Assembly (NCBI GenBank): GCA_900320545.1 | Contig: ONSU01000030.1 | Coordinates: 1-34,338, forward strand | DNA: 34,338 bases | DNA from: an uncultured Bacteroidales bacterium | Lineage (GTDB): Bacteria > Bacteroidota > Bacteroidia > Bacteroidales > UBA932 | Direction: 5' to 3' | In this document: one piece after another, positions 28,965 through 34,187 of the stretch | Position numbering within the stretch: the first letter of the stretch is position 1 | Layout: every line of letters starts with the position of its first letter | Notes under the pieces: generated by a model | What the model saw: only the letters and a program-made list of their open reading frames with translations | Told to the model about the DNA's origin: nothing | Databases searched by the model: none | Translations under genes and position numbers: made by a program

Positions 28965-29037
28965 GGGGTATTAGCTCAGTTGGTAGAGCGTTTGAATGGC
29001 ATTCAAAAGGTCAGGAGTTCGATTCTCCTATGCTCCA
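28965..29037 (+). tRNA. tRNA-Ala (GGC)
   Basis: A 73-base cloverleaf with acceptor GGGGTAT pairing with ATGCTCC, including the G3-U70 pair that identifies alanine tRNA, anticodon GGC at 28998-29000 and discriminator A at 29037. The CCA end is not encoded (next bases are CTC) and must be added by nucleotidyltransferase. Confidence 0.96.
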
Positions 29038-29042
29038 CTCGG

Positions 29043-29080: not shown

Positions 29081-29120
29081 ATGCCGAAGATTCCGGTATG
29101 GCTTCATAGAAGGCCGAAAA

Positions 29121-29158
29121 TGCGACTTAACCCGTCTTAAAACAATGGTTAAGTCGCA
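29121..29158 (-). terminator. Hairpin downstream of the STAS gene, probable terminator
   Basis: A perfect 12-base inverted repeat (29121-29132 with 29147-29158) around a 14-base loop. Read leftward it is followed by ATTTT, and it lies 42 bases past the stop of the last gene of the minus-strand signalling operon. The large loop and short T run make it weaker than the other terminators here. The 29081-29120 stretch holds nothing else I recognise. Confidence 0.5.
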
Positions 29159-29200
29159 AAAACGCCCCGAAATGCCGCCGAAAACTCCGGTCCGGCCGCC

Positions 29201-29503
29201 TTACTGGATTTCGAACAAATTGAGGAAACCGGTCATCATAAAGATGCCGCGGATGTTGTCGTCGATGTTGCGGACGATGACTTTGCCGCCGGCTGCGGCT
29301 GCGGCTTTCCGCAGGGAAAGGAAAATGCGGAGCCCCGAGCTGGAGATGTAGGTGAGCGCCGAGCAGTCCAGGATGATGGTGCCGCCCGCCTCTTCTTTGA
29401 GGGGTTCCAGTTTCTCAGCCACTTCCTGGGCGACCGGGGTGTCTAGCCGGCCGTCGAGGGAGACGATGATTTCGTCGTTCTGATGCGCAATCGTTACTTC
29501 CAT
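29201..29503 (-). CDS. STAS-domain anti-sigma-factor antagonist-like protein
   Basis: A 100-residue single STAS domain. The conserved DCSALTYISSSGLR at residues 46-59 contains the phosphorylatable serine (Ser55 by alignment with the SSG motif of SpoIIAA/RsbV). In partner switching, a HATPase kinase phosphorylates this serine and a PP2C/SpoIIE phosphatase removes the phosphate. The ATG at 29503 begins two bases after the stop of the SpoIIE-HATPase gene, so the pair is translated together. An Ala/Gly-rich stretch (residues 67-73) replaces a helix turn of typical family members but does not disrupt the fold. Its downstream partner, sigma factor or other target is not in the window. Confidence 0.92.
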   Translation of the reverse strand: MEVTIAHQNDEIIVSLDGRLDTPVAQEVAEKLEPLKEEAGGTIILDCSALTYISSSGLRIFLSLRKAAAAAGGKVIVRNIDDNIRGIFMMTGFLNLFEIQ

Positions 29504-29505
29504 AA

Positions 29506-31653
29506 TTATTTGATGTTTTTTGTCATTGTCAGGATATTCTTGCCGTCCCGGTGCCTGTAGGCGACCGTATCCATAATCTTCCGGACCAGGTGGATGCCCA
29601 GTCCGCCGATGGGACGCTCCGTGGCGGGAGCGTCGATGTCGACTTCTGGAGCGGCGGTGGGGTCGAACGGAGTGCCGTTGTCGGACAGGGTGAAGGTGAC
29701 GGCGGTAGGGGAGAGGTCGGCCGTGAGGATGACCGGCGCGTGCATCCCTTCGGGGTAGGCGTAGAGGATGACGTTGGTTACGGCCTCTTCCAGGGCGAGA
29801 TTGACGTTCATCGTCGTGGGAAGGTCCAGTCCGGCTTCTCCCGCGATGCCTTCCACCCATCCCTCCAGCCGGGAAATCTGCTTGATGTTGTTGCGCAGGA
29901 TGATCCGGTGCGGGTTTTCTTTGCCGAGATAATGGATGAACAGCATCGTGAGGTCGTCGCTCTGGGGCGCCTCTCCGACAAACTCGATCACCCGGTCGGA
30001 GATGTTGCGCAGATGTTCTTCCGCGCATCTCCAGCCGTGCAGCGCGCTTTCGATGCGCGTCTCGCCGAACTGTTCGTGTGCCAGGTTTTCCGCTTCCGTG
30101 AGGCCGTCGGTATAGAGGAATATGGCGCTGTCGGGCCGCAGGGTGATCTCCTGGCCGCTGAACTGGAAGTCCGCGACGACCCCCAGCGGGATGTTCGCAT
30201 CGACCTCGATCGGGTGGATCGTGTCCAACAGGATCATCGGCGGGTTGTGTCCGGCGTTGCAGTAGCGGAGCCGGCCGTTTTCGAGATCCAGCACGCCGCA
30301 GAAGAAGGTGACGAACATACAGTTCTCGTTGCTTTCGCTCAGACTGGCGTTCATCATCGTGACGATGAGCGCGGGATCATCCTGATGGGCGGAGATGTTG
30401 CGGAACGTCGTCCGGGTCACGGCCATCACGAGGGAGGCCGGGATGCCTTTCCCGCTTACGTCGCCGATGCAGAAGAACAGTTTGCCTTCGCGGATGTAGA
30501 AGTCGTACAGGTCGCCGCCCACTTCCTTGGCCGGGATGATGGCGGCCGACATGTCGAGGTCGTTCCGGTCCGGGAACGGCGGGAAGATCTTGGGGATCAT
30601 CGCCATCTGGATGCCGCTCGCGATGTGGAGTTCGTTCTCCATCCGCTCTTTCTTCTCACTGAGGGCCTTGTATTTCGTCTGGCTCCGGTCGTAGGAGCGG
30701 ATGATCAGGACGATCATCGCCAGGCCGAGAATCTGGAGAATCCAGATGAGGCCTCCGATCCGGCGGAGAGTGCCGTAGATGTCGCTCTCGGGGATGACGA
30801 TGGACATCGACCAACCGGTACGCTCCACAGGGGCGAAGTAAACGTAATTCTTGCTGCCTTTATATTTGACCGGCAGATTGCCCGAGGTGCCGCTCCGCAT
30901 CGCCTGGTTGACCAAGCGGATGGAGGCGCTGTCTCCCGAACGGTTTGCAATCTCATCGACCGTGCGGCGCATGACGAGCGTCTCGGCGGGGCATACCATG
31001 ATCTGGCCGGTGCGGCTGACCATCAGGCTGAAAGCGTGGGGATAGACTTTGATGCCGCCGACCATGTCCGACAGCCAGTCCAGGGATATGTCGGCCGTCA
31101 GGATGGCCGCAATCTTCCCGGAAGCGTCCCGGACGGGGGCGGAATAGGTGGTCATCAGGATGTCGCCGCCGCCCTCGTCGAGGTAGGGTTCGGACCAGTA
31201 GCCTTCGCCGCTTTCCAGAGGCTTCGCGAACCACTCTTGCGCCGGATAATCGTACTCTTCCGTGGCGAGGGACCGGATCGTCAGCGCCCCGGATGGATCT
31301 CTGAAAACATAGGGGGCATACAGTGGCAGCGAGCGCAGGTAACCGGGAACCAGGGCGACCGTCGAGCCCATTACGACGGGGTTGTTCTCGATGAGGCGCC
31401 GGCAGACGGCGCTCAGACTGTCGGGATTGTCCAGCGCCCAGCATGCGATCCAGACATTGTTCTTCACGGCGCTTTCGGCCTGGTCGATGACATCCAGAAT
31501 CTCGCACTGGGTGGCCTCCAGCTCGCTTTCAGCGCGCAGGGACGCCTCCGCCTTGATGCCTTTCTGGGAGAAGTACATCTGGATGACGGCCGTCACCTCC
31601 AGGGTGACCGCCGCGACAATGACCAGCAGCAGTCCTGTTCTATACTTTTTCAT
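29506..31653 (-). CDS. Cache-SpoIIE phosphatase-HATPase transmembrane sensor
   Basis: A 715-residue inner-membrane protein. Transmembrane helix at about residues 7-27; extracytoplasmic Cache-like sensor at about 35-295 (EWFAKPLESGEGYWSEPYL near 140-158, then TTYSAPVRD); second transmembrane helix at about 300-319; short coiled linker; SpoIIE/PP2C phosphatase at about 345-575 with metal-binding GGDLYDF (379-385), GDVSGKG (397-403), YTDG (514-517) and DDLT (566-569); C-terminal HATPase (RsbW/SpoIIAB-like) at about 580-712 with NLALEEAVTN, DNGTPFDP and GGLGIHLV. The fusion holds opposing kinase-like and phosphatase domains for one STAS protein. I chose the ATG at 31653 over 31671 because it forms ATGA with the preceding stop and starts a membrane-anchor sequence. 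Confidence 0.92.
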   Translation of the reverse strand: MKKYRTGLLLVIVAAVTLEVTAVIQMYFSQKGIKAEASLRAESELEATQCEILDVIDQAESAVKNNVWIACWALDNPDSLSAVCRRLIENNPVVMGSTVALVPGYLRSLPLYAPYVFRDPSGALTIRSLATEEYDYPAQEWFAKPLESGEGYWSEPYLDEGGGDILMTTYSAPVRDASGKIAAILTADISLDWLSDMVGGIKVYPHAFSLMVSRTGQIMVCPAETLVMRRTVDEIANRSGDSASIRLVNQAMRSGTSGNLPVKYKGSKNYVYFAPVERTGWSMSIVIPESDIYGTLRRIGGLIWILQILGLAMIVLIIRSYDRSQTKYKALSEKKERMENELHIASGIQMAMIPKIFPPFPDRNDLDMSAAIIPAKEVGGDLYDFYIREGKLFFCIGDVSGKGIPASLVMAVTRTTFRNISAHQDDPALIVTMMNASLSESNENCMFVTFFCGVLDLENGRLRYCNAGHNPPMILLDTIHPIEVDANIPLGVVADFQFSGQEITLRPDSAIFLYTDGLTEAENLAHEQFGETRIESALHGWRCAEEHLRNISDRVIEFVGEAPQSDDLTMLFIHYLGKENPHRIILRNNIKQISRLEGWVEGIAGEAGLDLPTTMNVNLALEEAVTNVILYAYPEGMHAPVILTADLSPTAVTFTLSDNGTPFDPTAAPEVDIDAPATERPIGGLGIHLVRKIMDTVAYRHRDGKNILTMTKNIK

Positions 31654-32480
31654 AGGATGGGTTTCAGACATTCACGGAACTCGGGCATCGGGCGTCCGGT
31701 GTCCCGTTCGATGATAAGGGTTTTAAGGCCCGCATAGGGGGCGATCCGCTCTTCGATCTCTCCGAGGGGACGGTCCTTCCCGAAATAGGCCGCGGCGAAA
31801 TGCCGCCAGAATTCGAGGGAAAGCGACTTCGGCATATGGAAAGTCTCCCGGATGAAGTCCTCGTCGCTCAGGGCGCAGCAGAGGTAGACCATCGCGATGT
31901 CGAAGATGTGGTTGCCGTAGCAGAAGTCGCCAAGATCGATGAAATAGCGTTTGTCTCCCGCAAAAATGGCATTGCTGTACTGCAGGTCGCCGTGGATGGC
32001 GGTATCCTCGTCGGGCGTGTCGGCAATGAAGCGGCCGATCCGGTCTTTCTCCTGCGCAGAGAAGAAGGGGTTTTCGGCCAGGAGGCTGTAGTAGCGGTCC
32101 TTTACATTGGAGAACTGTGCGGGATCCACGTGCGTAGCGTGCAGTCGAAGGCACATCTGCGCGAATTCGGCCGCATATTTCCCGACGTTGGCGGGGTCGT
32201 CCGCGGTGGCGCGGGAATAGGATTTCTTGCCCTCGATGCGGCGGAACCGGATCCCGTACCGTCCGTCTTCCGTGACGACATATTCGCCCGGCTCGGGAGT
32301 GGGGATGCCCAGGTCAAAGACCTTCCGGGCCAGCATCATCTCGTCCAGCGGCTGCTGGATCTTGCCGGGAAAATAGAGTTTCAGCATGACCGAAGGGTCG
32401 GTCCTGTGGTCGAAACTCTCGCCGTTGGCGCCGCCGCCGGAGAGGATATAGTCGTCGAGCGAGATTTTAATCGGTTCCAT
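31650..32480 (-). CDS. APH-fold phosphotransferase (TIGR02172-like)
   Basis: A 276-residue cytoplasmic kinase-like protein. The N-lobe has a glycine-rich SGGGANGESF (residues 14-23) and a Lys in VMLKLYFPGK, and the catalytic loop HGDLQYSN is at 163-170 with Asp165. The metal-binding DLGD is at 182-185. This is the pattern of the choline/aminoglycoside kinase fold and of the TIGR02172 paralogous family; the substrate is unknown. Position in the operon between an alarmone hydrolase and a partner-switching sensor makes a role in that signalling plausible, but an unrelated sugar or nucleoside kinase cannot be excluded. It overlaps the hydrolase gene by 14 bases and the sensor gene by four (ATGA). 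Confidence 0.8.
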   Translation of the reverse strand: MEPIKISLDDYILSGGGANGESFDHRTDPSVMLKLYFPGKIQQPLDEMMLARKVFDLGIPTPEPGEYVVTEDGRYGIRFRRIEGKKSYSRATADDPANVGKYAAEFAQMCLRLHATHVDPAQFSNVKDRYYSLLAENPFFSAQEKDRIGRFIADTPDEDTAIHGDLQYSNAIFAGDKRYFIDLGDFCYGNHIFDIAMVYLCCALSDEDFIRETFHMPKSLSLEFWRHFAAAYFGKDRPLGEIEERIAPYAGLKTLIIERDTGRPMPEFRECLKPIL

Positions 32481-33051
32481 GGAATACCTGATTGATGAGT
32501 TGTTCGAATTCGCGGAAGGCGCAGGTGTCGGAGAGTTCCCGGAGGGAATCGGCGAGGCCGCGGTAGTGCCACTCGTGCTCGCTGCGGTCTTTGACGTGGA
32601 AGAGATTCCAGAACGATTCGCCCTGTTCGGCGTAATCCCGGGCGATGGCCCGCATGTTGGACAGTTTGTCGCCGAGCGCCACCATCTTGGCGTCTCTGGA
32701 GGCTTTCCGGAGCCGGTCGATGGCTTCCTGCTTGCGGGAGTGCCAGCTTTCTTCCTCCGGTACGCCGGCTTCGAAACTGTCGCTCTCCTCGGCGACCAGC
32801 GAGGCGATGCGGTCCCCGAACGCCTCGCGGAGATCCTCCACCGTCACGTCCGTGTCCTCCACCGTGTCGTGGAGGGCGGCGGCGGCGAGGAGTTCCTGGT
32901 CGGCGGTCATCGTGGCGACGATCGTGACGGCCTCCATCGGATGGACGATATAGGGGAAACCCTTCCCGCGGCGCTCCGTCCCTGCGTGGGCGCGGACCGC
33001 GAATTGAATGGCCCGGTCGAGCAGCCGGGTGTCGAGGGGGTTGTTCGCCAT
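32467..33051 (-). CDS. MESH1-like small alarmone hydrolase (HD domain)
   Basis: A 194-residue HD-domain protein resembling the hydrolase half of RelA/SpoT enzymes and stand-alone MESH1. Visible residues of the Mn-binding HD site: His37 (PYIVHP), His61-Asp62 (ALHDTVEDT, residues 59-67) and Asp128 (GDKLSNMR, 127-134), plus the neighbouring Arg/Lys-rich HAGTERRGKG loop (22-31). These match the MESH1 motif set closely, so hydrolysis of the 3'-pyrophosphate of (p)ppGpp or a related nucleotide, or of pyrophosphorylated RNA, is likely. It begins three bases after the synthetase gene and overlaps the kinase gene by 14 bases. Confidence 0.88.
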   Translation of the reverse strand: MANNPLDTRLLDRAIQFAVRAHAGTERRGKGFPYIVHPMEAVTIVATMTADQELLAAAALHDTVEDTDVTVEDLREAFGDRIASLVAEESDSFEAGVPEEESWHSRKQEAIDRLRKASRDAKMVALGDKLSNMRAIARDYAEQGESFWNLFHVKDRSEHEWHYRGLADSLRELSDTCAFREFEQLINQVFHGTD

Positions 33052-33054
33052 ATG

Positions 33055-34131
33055 CTAAAGATTCATAAAAGGAAGGTCTTTGGTCTGTTCGACAAGGAAA
33101 CCGGCGAGGGCGTCATTGCCTTCGGACGGACCGTTGAGCGTGTCGAGCATCCTGCGGAGCCCGGCTTTGCCGCCGCCGTTCTTGAGGATGTATGCCGTGC
33201 AGAGATTCTGCGGCGCGACGGAAGAGGAGAGGATGTCGATGTCGGTCAGGCCGATCTGGAAGCAGGCGATCTGGTAGGCCGCCTCGAAGAATTCCTTGAT
33301 GAGGGCGTCGATGTCGCCGAGGGTCTGGAATCCCATATCCTTGAACTGGGCGAGGAAAGGGGAGAGGTCGACTTCCTCGATTTCGGCCTGGTTGATGGAG
33401 GCGATCCGGCGGGTAAGTCTGTCGAAGGGACCGATGGAGAGGTAGCTCCGGAACGAATCGCCGTCAAGCTGCACGTCGGCAAGGTTGCCGGAGGCGACGA
33501 GACTCTGCACCTGGCGGCGGTAGTCGGCGAGTTCTCTCCGGATGCGGCTGAATTCGTCGTCCACCAGTTCCAGCATTCCCGCGAGGCGGCTCATGTTCCT
33601 CAGATACACCTTCGGGATTTCGATCCCGCTCTTGTAGCCGGTGTCGTGGTTCATGTTGGCCCAGGCGTGCTGGAGGACCGTCCGCATCTGCACCTCGAAG
33701 GCGATCCGGGCGTCCTGCTCCGGCATCCGGCAGATGTAGTGCAGGGAGAGGTAGCCGAAACTGTCGATTTCGTGGAGTTTCCGCTTGTCGACGGAATGCT
33801 CCCAGTCGATCTCGAAGAGGTGCTCCAGGGCGGATGCGACCTTGTCGACCTCGTCGATGTAGAAAGTGATGACACGGAGGCCGATGATGTCGGTGATATC
33901 GAAGATGTCGCGGTATTTGCTCCCCTTGAGGCGAAGTTTGCCCGCAAGGGACGCTTCGGTTTTGATCCGCTGCTCGATACTGGCGACGACGATCCCCGCC
34001 TCGGCGAAGAATTGCTGCATCCGCCGGTGGATCGTTTCGCCCATTTTCCTGTATGTGGGGAGGAGTTCGCGGTACTGCCTGAGGAGTTCCTGCGAATGCG
34101 GATCGGTCGGGTATGTCTTGTCGGTATGCAT
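33055..34131 (-). CDS. RelA/SpoT-type alarmone synthetase, stand-alone
   Basis: A 358-residue protein with a synthetase domain at about residues 40-170: RIKTEASLAGK (55-65), DITDIIGLRV (78-87), GYLSLHYI (126-133), FEVQMRT (145-151) and HDTGYK (162-167) are the RSH synthetase core. The remaining 190 residues have no TGS or ACT domain and look mostly helical, so this is a small alarmone synthetase with an unassigned C-terminal extension. It should transfer pyrophosphate from ATP to GTP/GDP, or, in toxic relatives, to tRNA ends. The ATG at 34131 is preferred: the alternative TTG at 34143 lies in the -7 box. First gene of the five-gene operon. Confidence 0.88.
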   Translation of the reverse strand: MHTDKTYPTDPHSQELLRQYRELLPTYRKMGETIHRRMQQFFAEAGIVVASIEQRIKTEASLAGKLRLKGSKYRDIFDITDIIGLRVITFYIDEVDKVASALEHLFEIDWEHSVDKRKLHEIDSFGYLSLHYICRMPEQDARIAFEVQMRTVLQHAWANMNHDTGYKSGIEIPKVYLRNMSRLAGMLELVDDEFSRIRRELADYRRQVQSLVASGNLADVQLDGDSFRSYLSIGPFDRLTRRIASINQAEIEEVDLSPFLAQFKDMGFQTLGDIDALIKEFFEAAYQIACFQIGLTDIDILSSSVAPQNLCTAYILKNGGGKAGLRRMLDTLNGPSEGNDALAGFLVEQTKDLPFMNL

Positions 34132-34140
34132 AGATTGTGT

Positions 34141-34148
34141 CAAAGATA
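34141..34148 (-). promoter_or_regulatory. -7 promoter box of the alarmone/partner-switching operon
   Basis: Plus-strand CAAAGATA reads leftward as TATCTTTG and ends nine bases before the ATG at 34131. A weak -33 (plus-strand CAA at 34168-34170) is about 19 bases upstream. The leader would be only a few bases long. Confidence 0.6.
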
Positions 34149-34158
34149 AGAATAATTC

Positions 34159-34187
34159 TTTGAATTCAACATTTTTCTTTATCTTTG
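34159..34187 (+). promoter_or_regulatory. Promoter of the lipid A acyltransferase gene
   Basis: TTTG at 34159-34162, 17 bases, TATCTTTG at 34180-34187, which ends six bases before the ATG at 34194. It is divergent from the alarmone operon promoter within about 45 bases. Confidence 0.6.

Follow-up and report, generated by a model that had tools for sequence, protein, structure and literature searches.

The window analysed in this work is contig C18, a stretch of 34,338 bases from the genome of an uncultured Bacteroidales bacterium (an assembly of 2.55 Mb in 58 contigs, 93.3% complete). The minus strand of this window carries a five-gene operon in which enzymes for the synthesis and hydrolysis of alarmones are joined to the components of a partner-switching system. 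With moderate confidence, we propose that the operon is a self-contained partner switch with alarmone turnover as its output; by analogy, it can be read as doing for ppGpp what HsbR/HsbA/HsbD and SiaABCD do for c-di-GMP. If so, an outside ligand would set the alarmone level of certain gut and rumen bacteria via protein phosphorylation, and the operon would provide a first target for the SpoIIE-STAS switches of Bacteroidota, whose targets have not been described to our knowledge. The five genes follow one another on the minus strand in this order:

33055..34131, minus strand: small alarmone synthetase, with a RelA_SpoT domain at residues 54-169 (PF04607, E 3.8e-18)
32467..33051, minus strand: HD-type small alarmone hydrolase of the RelH/MixSpo type (HD_4, PF13328, E 1.5e-24)
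31650..32480, minus strand: APH-fold kinase, near TIGR02172 (PF01636, E 3.1e-13)
29506..31671, minus strand: sensor with a dCache domain (residues 88-291), a SpoIIE/PP2C phosphatase (395-580) and an RsbW-like HATPase kinase (595-718), assigned by Pfam
29201..29503, minus strand: STAS phospho-carrier of the SpoIIAA/RsbV type, with predicted phosphoserine S55 (PF01740, E 3.7e-18)

All five frames, which an initial annotation had named from the sequence of the window, are intact, and Pfam and NCBIfam profiles confirmed their families. The synthetase and hydrolase genes are separated by 3 bases and the sensor and STAS genes by 2, while the hydrolase and APH kinase genes overlap by 14. The statement of the same annotation that no gap or overlap exceeds 14 bases holds if the sensor starts at its second ATG (31653), where it overlaps the APH kinase gene by 4 bases, and fails for its first ATG (31671), where the overlap is 22.

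The association of these genes was studied in the genomes of relatives. When named genomes were scanned with an alignment of six sequences, at least 567 loci encoding a relative of the synthetase were identified, of which the best 80 were kept, so that the sample leans to close relatives; judged by their titles, these are Bacteroidales or Bacteroidia bins, many of them from the rumen. The core families were found in most of the 80 loci (synthetase 80, hydrolase 75, APH kinase 72, SpoIIE 67, STAS 66). Among non-core families, a K+/H+ antiporter was found in 25 loci, the next family in 11, and the others listed in at most 8, these flank counts being somewhat lowered by the frequent truncation of flanks (56 of the 80 loci retain 5 kb upstream and 64 retain 5 kb downstream). 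Further loci came from an order-wide search (5), from the other hits in the window's family (20 of 42) and from new hits in a second family (20 of 25). In total, 118 loci with distinct close synthetases (non-identical over the last 340 residues) were available; 45 were set aside since a contig or stretch end lay within 6 kb, and 73 were left. With a part counted as present when encoded on the same strand within 7 kb, the hydrolase was found in 71 of these loci, the phosphatase and the kinase in 69 each, STAS in 68 and the APH kinase in 63. The complete set, whose synteny the initial annotation had proposed to count, is kept as a group in 61 of the 73 loci and through several reorderings. The gene order of the window is the commonest one (33 of the 61 complete sets) without being universal, as nine other arrangements occur.

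Ten arrangements were distinguished among the complete sets and 21 in all 73 loci, reduced sets included. In a quick tree built from 115 synthetases, a single clade (support 99) holds the 95 close ones; as 40 of the 112 inner branches have a support below 80 and the 20 far sequences form long branches, changes were counted inside the 95-member clade. The complete sets underwent at least nine changes of arrangement on this tree, or eight when fusions and splits are left out of the count. If losses of parts are included, 20 changes were counted for the close sequences and 21 when the far ones were added. We regard it as very unlikely that the neighbourhood merely reflects common descent without a shared function. 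Such an explanation could draw on the origin of most loci from related rumen and gut genomes, on the selection of the best 80 of at least 567 loci, and on the many cut flanks that lower the flank counts; however, the other flanking genes are less well kept, and the complete set has survived at least eight to nine rearrangements.

The presence of the synthetase and of SpoIIE was compared by hand between two match lists for the same 199 genomes of the window's family, which records presence in the genome and not adjacency. The synthetase was matched in 43 of these genomes (two far matches and one fragment among them) and SpoIIE in 100. A SpoIIE match was found in 42 of the 43 genomes with a synthetase match vs 58 of the 156 genomes without one, and the lone exception (G560) has a far synthetase match. 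Within the genus, strong SpoIIE matches occur in all four genomes with the synthetase and in none of the 15 listed without it, 13 of which have no SpoIIE match and two a weak one (8e-5 and 7.6e-4); thus, the synthetase and SpoIIE have been gained and lost together in this genus. Taken with the cohesion in 61 of 73 loci and the reorderings, this joint gain and loss supports well the view of the initial annotation that the genes form one unit.

In the genome of the window, single-family searches found one STAS match and one SpoIIE match, both in the operon, and one HATPase_c_2 match above cut-off, also in the operon, with a second, sub-cutoff match in a 1381-residue frame on contig C30; a further copy may exist, given the incompleteness of the assembly. 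Two other RelA_SpoT domains lie in frames of 668 (C54) and 711 (C13) residues, which we presume to be the usual long enzymes; C15 holds a partial match below cut-off. The synthetase of the operon is therefore an addition to the normal set.

The five genes could also be merely co-transcribed, with the real target of the switch being a transcription or sigma factor encoded elsewhere, an explanation that we consider unlikely. The classical output of SpoIIE/HATPase/STAS partner switches is a sigma factor, and in the same family SpoIIE-STAS pairs without a nearby synthetase were found in 12 of 20 fetched loci. On the other hand, there is no sigma factor among the five genes (no search for sigma factors covered the rest of the genome), and the antiporter is the only non-core family in more than 11 of the 80 loci. 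The joint loss within the genus and the repeated reassembly of the same neighbours are also hard to reconcile with co-expression alone.

The predicted activities were assessed by profile searches and by alignments with relatives from the fetched loci; the roles of the conserved residues of all five proteins are those we take to hold for their families. The first protein is predicted to belong to the small alarmone synthetases (SAS) within the RSH superfamily and would make (p)ppGpp, pGpp or (p)ppApp. PF04607 is the only Pfam domain above cut-off in it (protein P0005), with no HD, TGS or ACT domain, and the lack of a Pfam match to GGDEF sets it apart from diguanylate cyclases. Twelve residues (R55, K57, S61, K65, D81, R86, Y127, H131, E146, Q148, R150 and H162) are conserved in 121 of 121 relatives. 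Among solved chains, the protein comes closest to YjbM/RelQ, YwaC and other small synthetases, and the family profile scores chains of the RelQ/RelP group at 59-63 bits vs 22.6 bits for chains 9erv/7ztb, which we take to be CapRel. The protein lies outside the YjbM/RelQ subgroup as defined by NCBIfam (54.3 bits vs a cut-off of 320). RelQ/YjbM and RelP/YwaC share with it the synthetase domain with matching residues, but their chains of 209-255 residues align only to about residue 205, and we know of no link between them and a partner switch. The profile of the remaining C-terminal region (about residues 205-358) matched no solved chain up to an E-value of 5. Synthetase frames longer than 450 residues (L107, L176 and L179) were considered as fusions and rejected, as Pfam gives RelA_SpoT only.

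The second protein appears from its sequence to be a small alarmone hydrolase (SAH) of the RelH/MixSpo type with predicted activity. Residues H37, H61, D62, E65, D66, D128 and N132, which represent the conserved H, HD, ED and D motifs, are present in 112 of 112 relatives. The initial label of a MESH1-like hydrolase was right about a hydrolase of the HD type and imprecise about the subgroup: the protein matches Lmo0812 (4yf1) with 87.8 bits (E 6.8e-24) and 7qoe with 78.9 bits, vs 60.5 bits for the MESH1-type chain 3nr1. RelH/MixSpo proteins (Lmo0812 and RelH of Corynebacterium and Leptospira, named as in the part of PMC10434055 available to us) have the same HD domain and motifs, whereas the hydrolase described here is encoded in an operon with a synthetase and a switch and is sometimes fused to the APH kinase. 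The latter scores 220.1 bits against TIGR02172, slightly below the NCBIfam cut-off of 228.2, and conserves H163, D165, N170 and D182 in 106 of 106 relatives. The hydrolase and the APH kinase form a single protein in 6 of the 73 loci (L020, L021, L176, L179, L180 and L183).

The sensor matches PF22673/dCache, SpoIIE (PF07228, 1.2e-47) and HATPase_c_2 (PF13581, 9.2e-26). Its phosphatase domain has D390 in 111 of 111 relatives, and its kinase domain has N633 in 106 of 106 and D664 and G666 in 105 of 105; E629, N633, D664, G666 and the GGLGI box are kept wherever the aligned sequences have letters at these positions. The STAS protein has S54, S55, G57, L58 and R59 in 106 of 106 relatives and aligns with SpoIIAA chains, where S55 stands opposite the SpoIIAA phosphoserine. 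This pairing partly rests on a chain reading DASGL in the alignment, which we take to be a serine-to-alanine mutant. Three parts of a partner switch are predicted to be present: a SpoIIE phosphatase with metal ligands, an RsbW-like kinase and a STAS protein with a phosphorylatable serine. In a subgroup of loci, SpoIIE and HATPase are encoded by separate genes.

In the proposed mechanism, a ligand bound at the dCache domain would tip the SpoIIE phosphatase against the HATPase kinase within one membrane protein, and the balance of the two activities would set the phosphorylation state of S55 in STAS. One form of STAS would bind the kinase; the other would bind and set either the synthetase or the pair of hydrolase and partner kinase. 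The level of (p)ppGpp or of a close relative would then rise or fall with the outside signal, independently of starved ribosomes, and the APH kinase would work with the hydrolase, probably in a further phosphorylation step. The dCache domain suggests that the signal is sensed outside the cytoplasm. We infer an effect of STAS phosphorylation on the synthetase or the hydrolase, and the STAS-synthetase contact, the direction of the switch, the ligand and the product belong to the same inferred part of the scheme. The observed part of the proposal comprises the genes themselves, the hydrolase-APH kinase fusions, the conserved active sites, the cohesion of the unit and the finding of no second switch in the genome. 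A bolder form of it, which we hold only tentatively, is a ligand-gated stringent response, in which an extracytoplasmic small molecule would control STAS phosphorylation, STAS would directly switch a dedicated synthetase-hydrolase pair, and the antiporter and the lipid and nucleotide kinases encoded at some loci would be direct readers of the signal.

Partner switches acting on nucleotide second messengers have been described for c-di-GMP. In Pseudomonas aeruginosa, HsbR, a single protein that combines a PP2C phosphatase with a kinase domain, controls the phosphorylation state of the STAS-type protein HsbA, a binder of the diguanylate cyclase HsbD (PMC6482189, as far as its text was available). 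As proposed for the operon, one phosphatase and kinase protein acts there on a STAS-type protein and thereby on a second-messenger synthase. However, HsbD is a diguanylate cyclase and no alarmone synthetase, HsbR has no dCache domain in control of it but is set by phosphorylation in the HptB pathway, HsbA has FlgM as a further target, and the available part of that source mentions no hydrolase or APH kinase in the set. SiaABCD, also from P. aeruginosa, and BgrSTUWV/BgrR of Sinorhizobium meliloti are likewise partner switches on c-di-GMP synthases, BgrV-BgrR following the logic proposed for the operon, and SiaC contacts SiaD directly unless phosphorylated (PMC8457831, available portions). The Sia system differs in its c-di-GMP product, in its separate kinase SiaB and in SiaC, a DUF1987 protein structurally related to STAS, and no degrading enzyme is named in those portions. 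By analogy, this known control of c-di-GMP synthases by STAS proteins (PMC8457831, PMC6482189) counts in favour of alarmone turnover as the output of the switch.

A description of this gene set was not found in the open-licence full-text literature, judged by titles and the openings of abstracts and with most subscription papers outside its scope, which agrees with the initial annotation, whose author knew of no described system with this exact set. Queries for STAS with small alarmone synthetase, for TIGR02172, for STAS with ppGpp synthetase and SpoIIE, and for GTP pyrophosphokinase with SpoIIE and STAS gave zero matches in the same literature. Partner switches as a kind are known; what is probably new is the predicted alarmone output. 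The known targets are sigma factors and c-di-GMP synthases, and we know of no partner switch that steers (p)ppGpp. A 2011 survey of RSH proteins names Rel and RshB for Bacteroidia (8 genomes), with one more mark in an unreadable column of that row (PMC3153485). Treponema denticola has a small synthetase and a small hydrolase, TDE1711 and TDE1690, and the word operon is absent from the text seen (PMC10434055).

Several observations weigh against the operon being a dedicated alarmone switch. Three of the 73 loci (L022, L063 and L088) are devoid of switch parts on the strand of the operon, and L182 lacks STAS. In L063, the synthetase stands alone downstream of an ABC transporter, which implies that the synthetase is able to persist without the switch. 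The phosphatase metal ligands have exceptions as aligned (D404 in 105 of 111 relatives, D522 in 103 of 109, D573 in 104 of 111). Part of the C-terminal region of the synthetase is also present in far relatives without an adjacent switch, so that this region is not dedicated to STAS binding. No fusion of the synthetase to STAS or to the kinase was seen among the fetched loci. In a co-variation analysis (88 of 92 paired loci, Neff 77), the positive control, STAS with the kinase, gave the lowest maximum z (4.3), below STAS with the hydrolase (7.0), the Cache domain (5.6), the synthetase (5.5 and 5.4), the phosphatase (5.4) and the APH kinase (5.1); because the expected coupling was not recovered, the analysis was discarded as uninformative. 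SpoIIE modules of the same kind occur elsewhere without a synthetase: at 20 chosen SpoIIE loci of the family away from the synthetase, STAS is adjacent in 12 and an NMT1-like binding protein in 13, which makes the switch a module wired to this synthetase. The set is also rare outside some families. Across the order, 6 of 247 genomes, that of the window among them, have a close relative of the synthetase, or 12 at E 1e-5. Among 296 genomes across the phylum, 11 had a match at 1e-20 and the only close match was the window's own, the next best (2.6e-58) being a far relative. In the second family, the synthetase was found in 26 of 200 genomes (two far matches). The operon is therefore patchy among species, while kept together in many gut and rumen Bacteroidales.

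This patchiness (43 of 199 family genomes) would also suit a toxSAS-like toxin-antitoxin or phage defence system, in which the synthetase would act as a toxin, with the hydrolase as its antitoxin and the switch as its trigger. The synthetase matches the PADLOC defence candidate PDC-S33 (E 4e-15) and the phage family phrog_9640 (E 5.1e-57), and far relatives were found in 12 phage and 31 plasmid records. FaRel is likewise flanked by a hydrolase antitoxin, ATfaRel being a small alarmone hydrolase encoded next to the synthetase; in contrast to the operon, FaRel makes (p)ppApp, is toxic and has a second, specific antitoxin, and no phospho-switch is named in the accessible part of the source (PMC11782079). 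The synthetase profile scores the small synthetases well above the presumed CapRel chains, and none of the other four proteins matches a PADLOC entry with an E-value below 0.015. A membrane sensor and a phospho-switch are part of no toxSAS system known to us, and we consider this explanation quite improbable. Two of the far relatives with part of the C-terminal region are encoded on a Bacteroides finegoldii plasmid with phage head genes (L249) and in a filamentous Vibrio phage (L251).

Additional genes recur in or beside the operon. The K+/H+ antiporter (Na_H_Exchanger and TrkA_C), counted above in 25 of the 80 loci, is found in 20 of the 73 (e.g., L079:8124-9650, L038, L056, L077, L097, L188 and L194) and may be a direct reader of the signal. 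A cytidylate kinase-like gene occurs in 10 of the 73 loci (e.g., L061, L064 (PF13189), L071, L083, L191, L195, L206, L211 and L212) and an NMT1-like binding protein in 8. NMT1-like proteins adjoin many SpoIIE sensors with or without the synthetase (L089:4814-5782, L229-L234, L236, L238-L240, L242, L243 and L245) and could present a ligand to the dCache domain. In both long HATPase frames that were scanned (L176:10813-12114 and L179:11246-12616), the HATPase forms one protein with a DAGK/YegS-like lipid kinase, an unusual kinase pair.

These recurring accessories and the lipid kinase fusion would fit a reversed scheme with the alarmone as input: the synthetase and the hydrolase would set a local nucleotide read by the sensor kinase or the APH kinase, and the output would lie outside the five genes, e.g., in the antiporter or the lipid or nucleotide kinases. 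However, every accessory is confined to a minority of loci, whereas the synthetase and the hydrolase are constant (71 of 73, though the loci were selected by the synthetase), and we likewise consider this scheme improbable.

Among the reduced sets, L181 consists of the synthetase, the hydrolase, a kinase encoded on its own, STAS and then a POT-family transporter, and L184 of the synthetase and STAS, followed by an MFS transporter and the end of the contig, beyond which more parts may lie. Both genomes have SpoIIE genes elsewhere. Reduced sets can retain the kinase and STAS beside the synthetase, which counts in favour of the proposed switch. A second SpoIIE-STAS module lies beside the operon in L106 and L189, divergently oriented in L189.

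Two further features delimit the operon in the window:

34141..34169, minus strand: promoter-like site TTG-N18-TATCTTTG of the Bacteroidetes type (pattern scan and shuffles)
29121..29158, minus strand: hairpin followed by TTTT, a probable terminator (fold of 29105-29165, -21.4 kcal/mol)

The site TTG-N18-TATCTTTG ends nine bases 5' of the synthetase ATG. The scan used what we take to be the Bacteroidetes-type promoter consensus with a spacer of 17-21 bases and gave 8 matches in the window vs a mean of 0.58 in 50 single-base shuffles, none of the 8 lying inside the operon. A second site of this type (34160-34187, plus strand) points away from the operon into a frame cut by the contig end, whose first 48 residues (read from 34194) matched no Pfam family. 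The hairpin lies 3' of STAS, the last gene, and beyond it a tRNA-Ala gene is encoded on the opposite strand (28965-29038).

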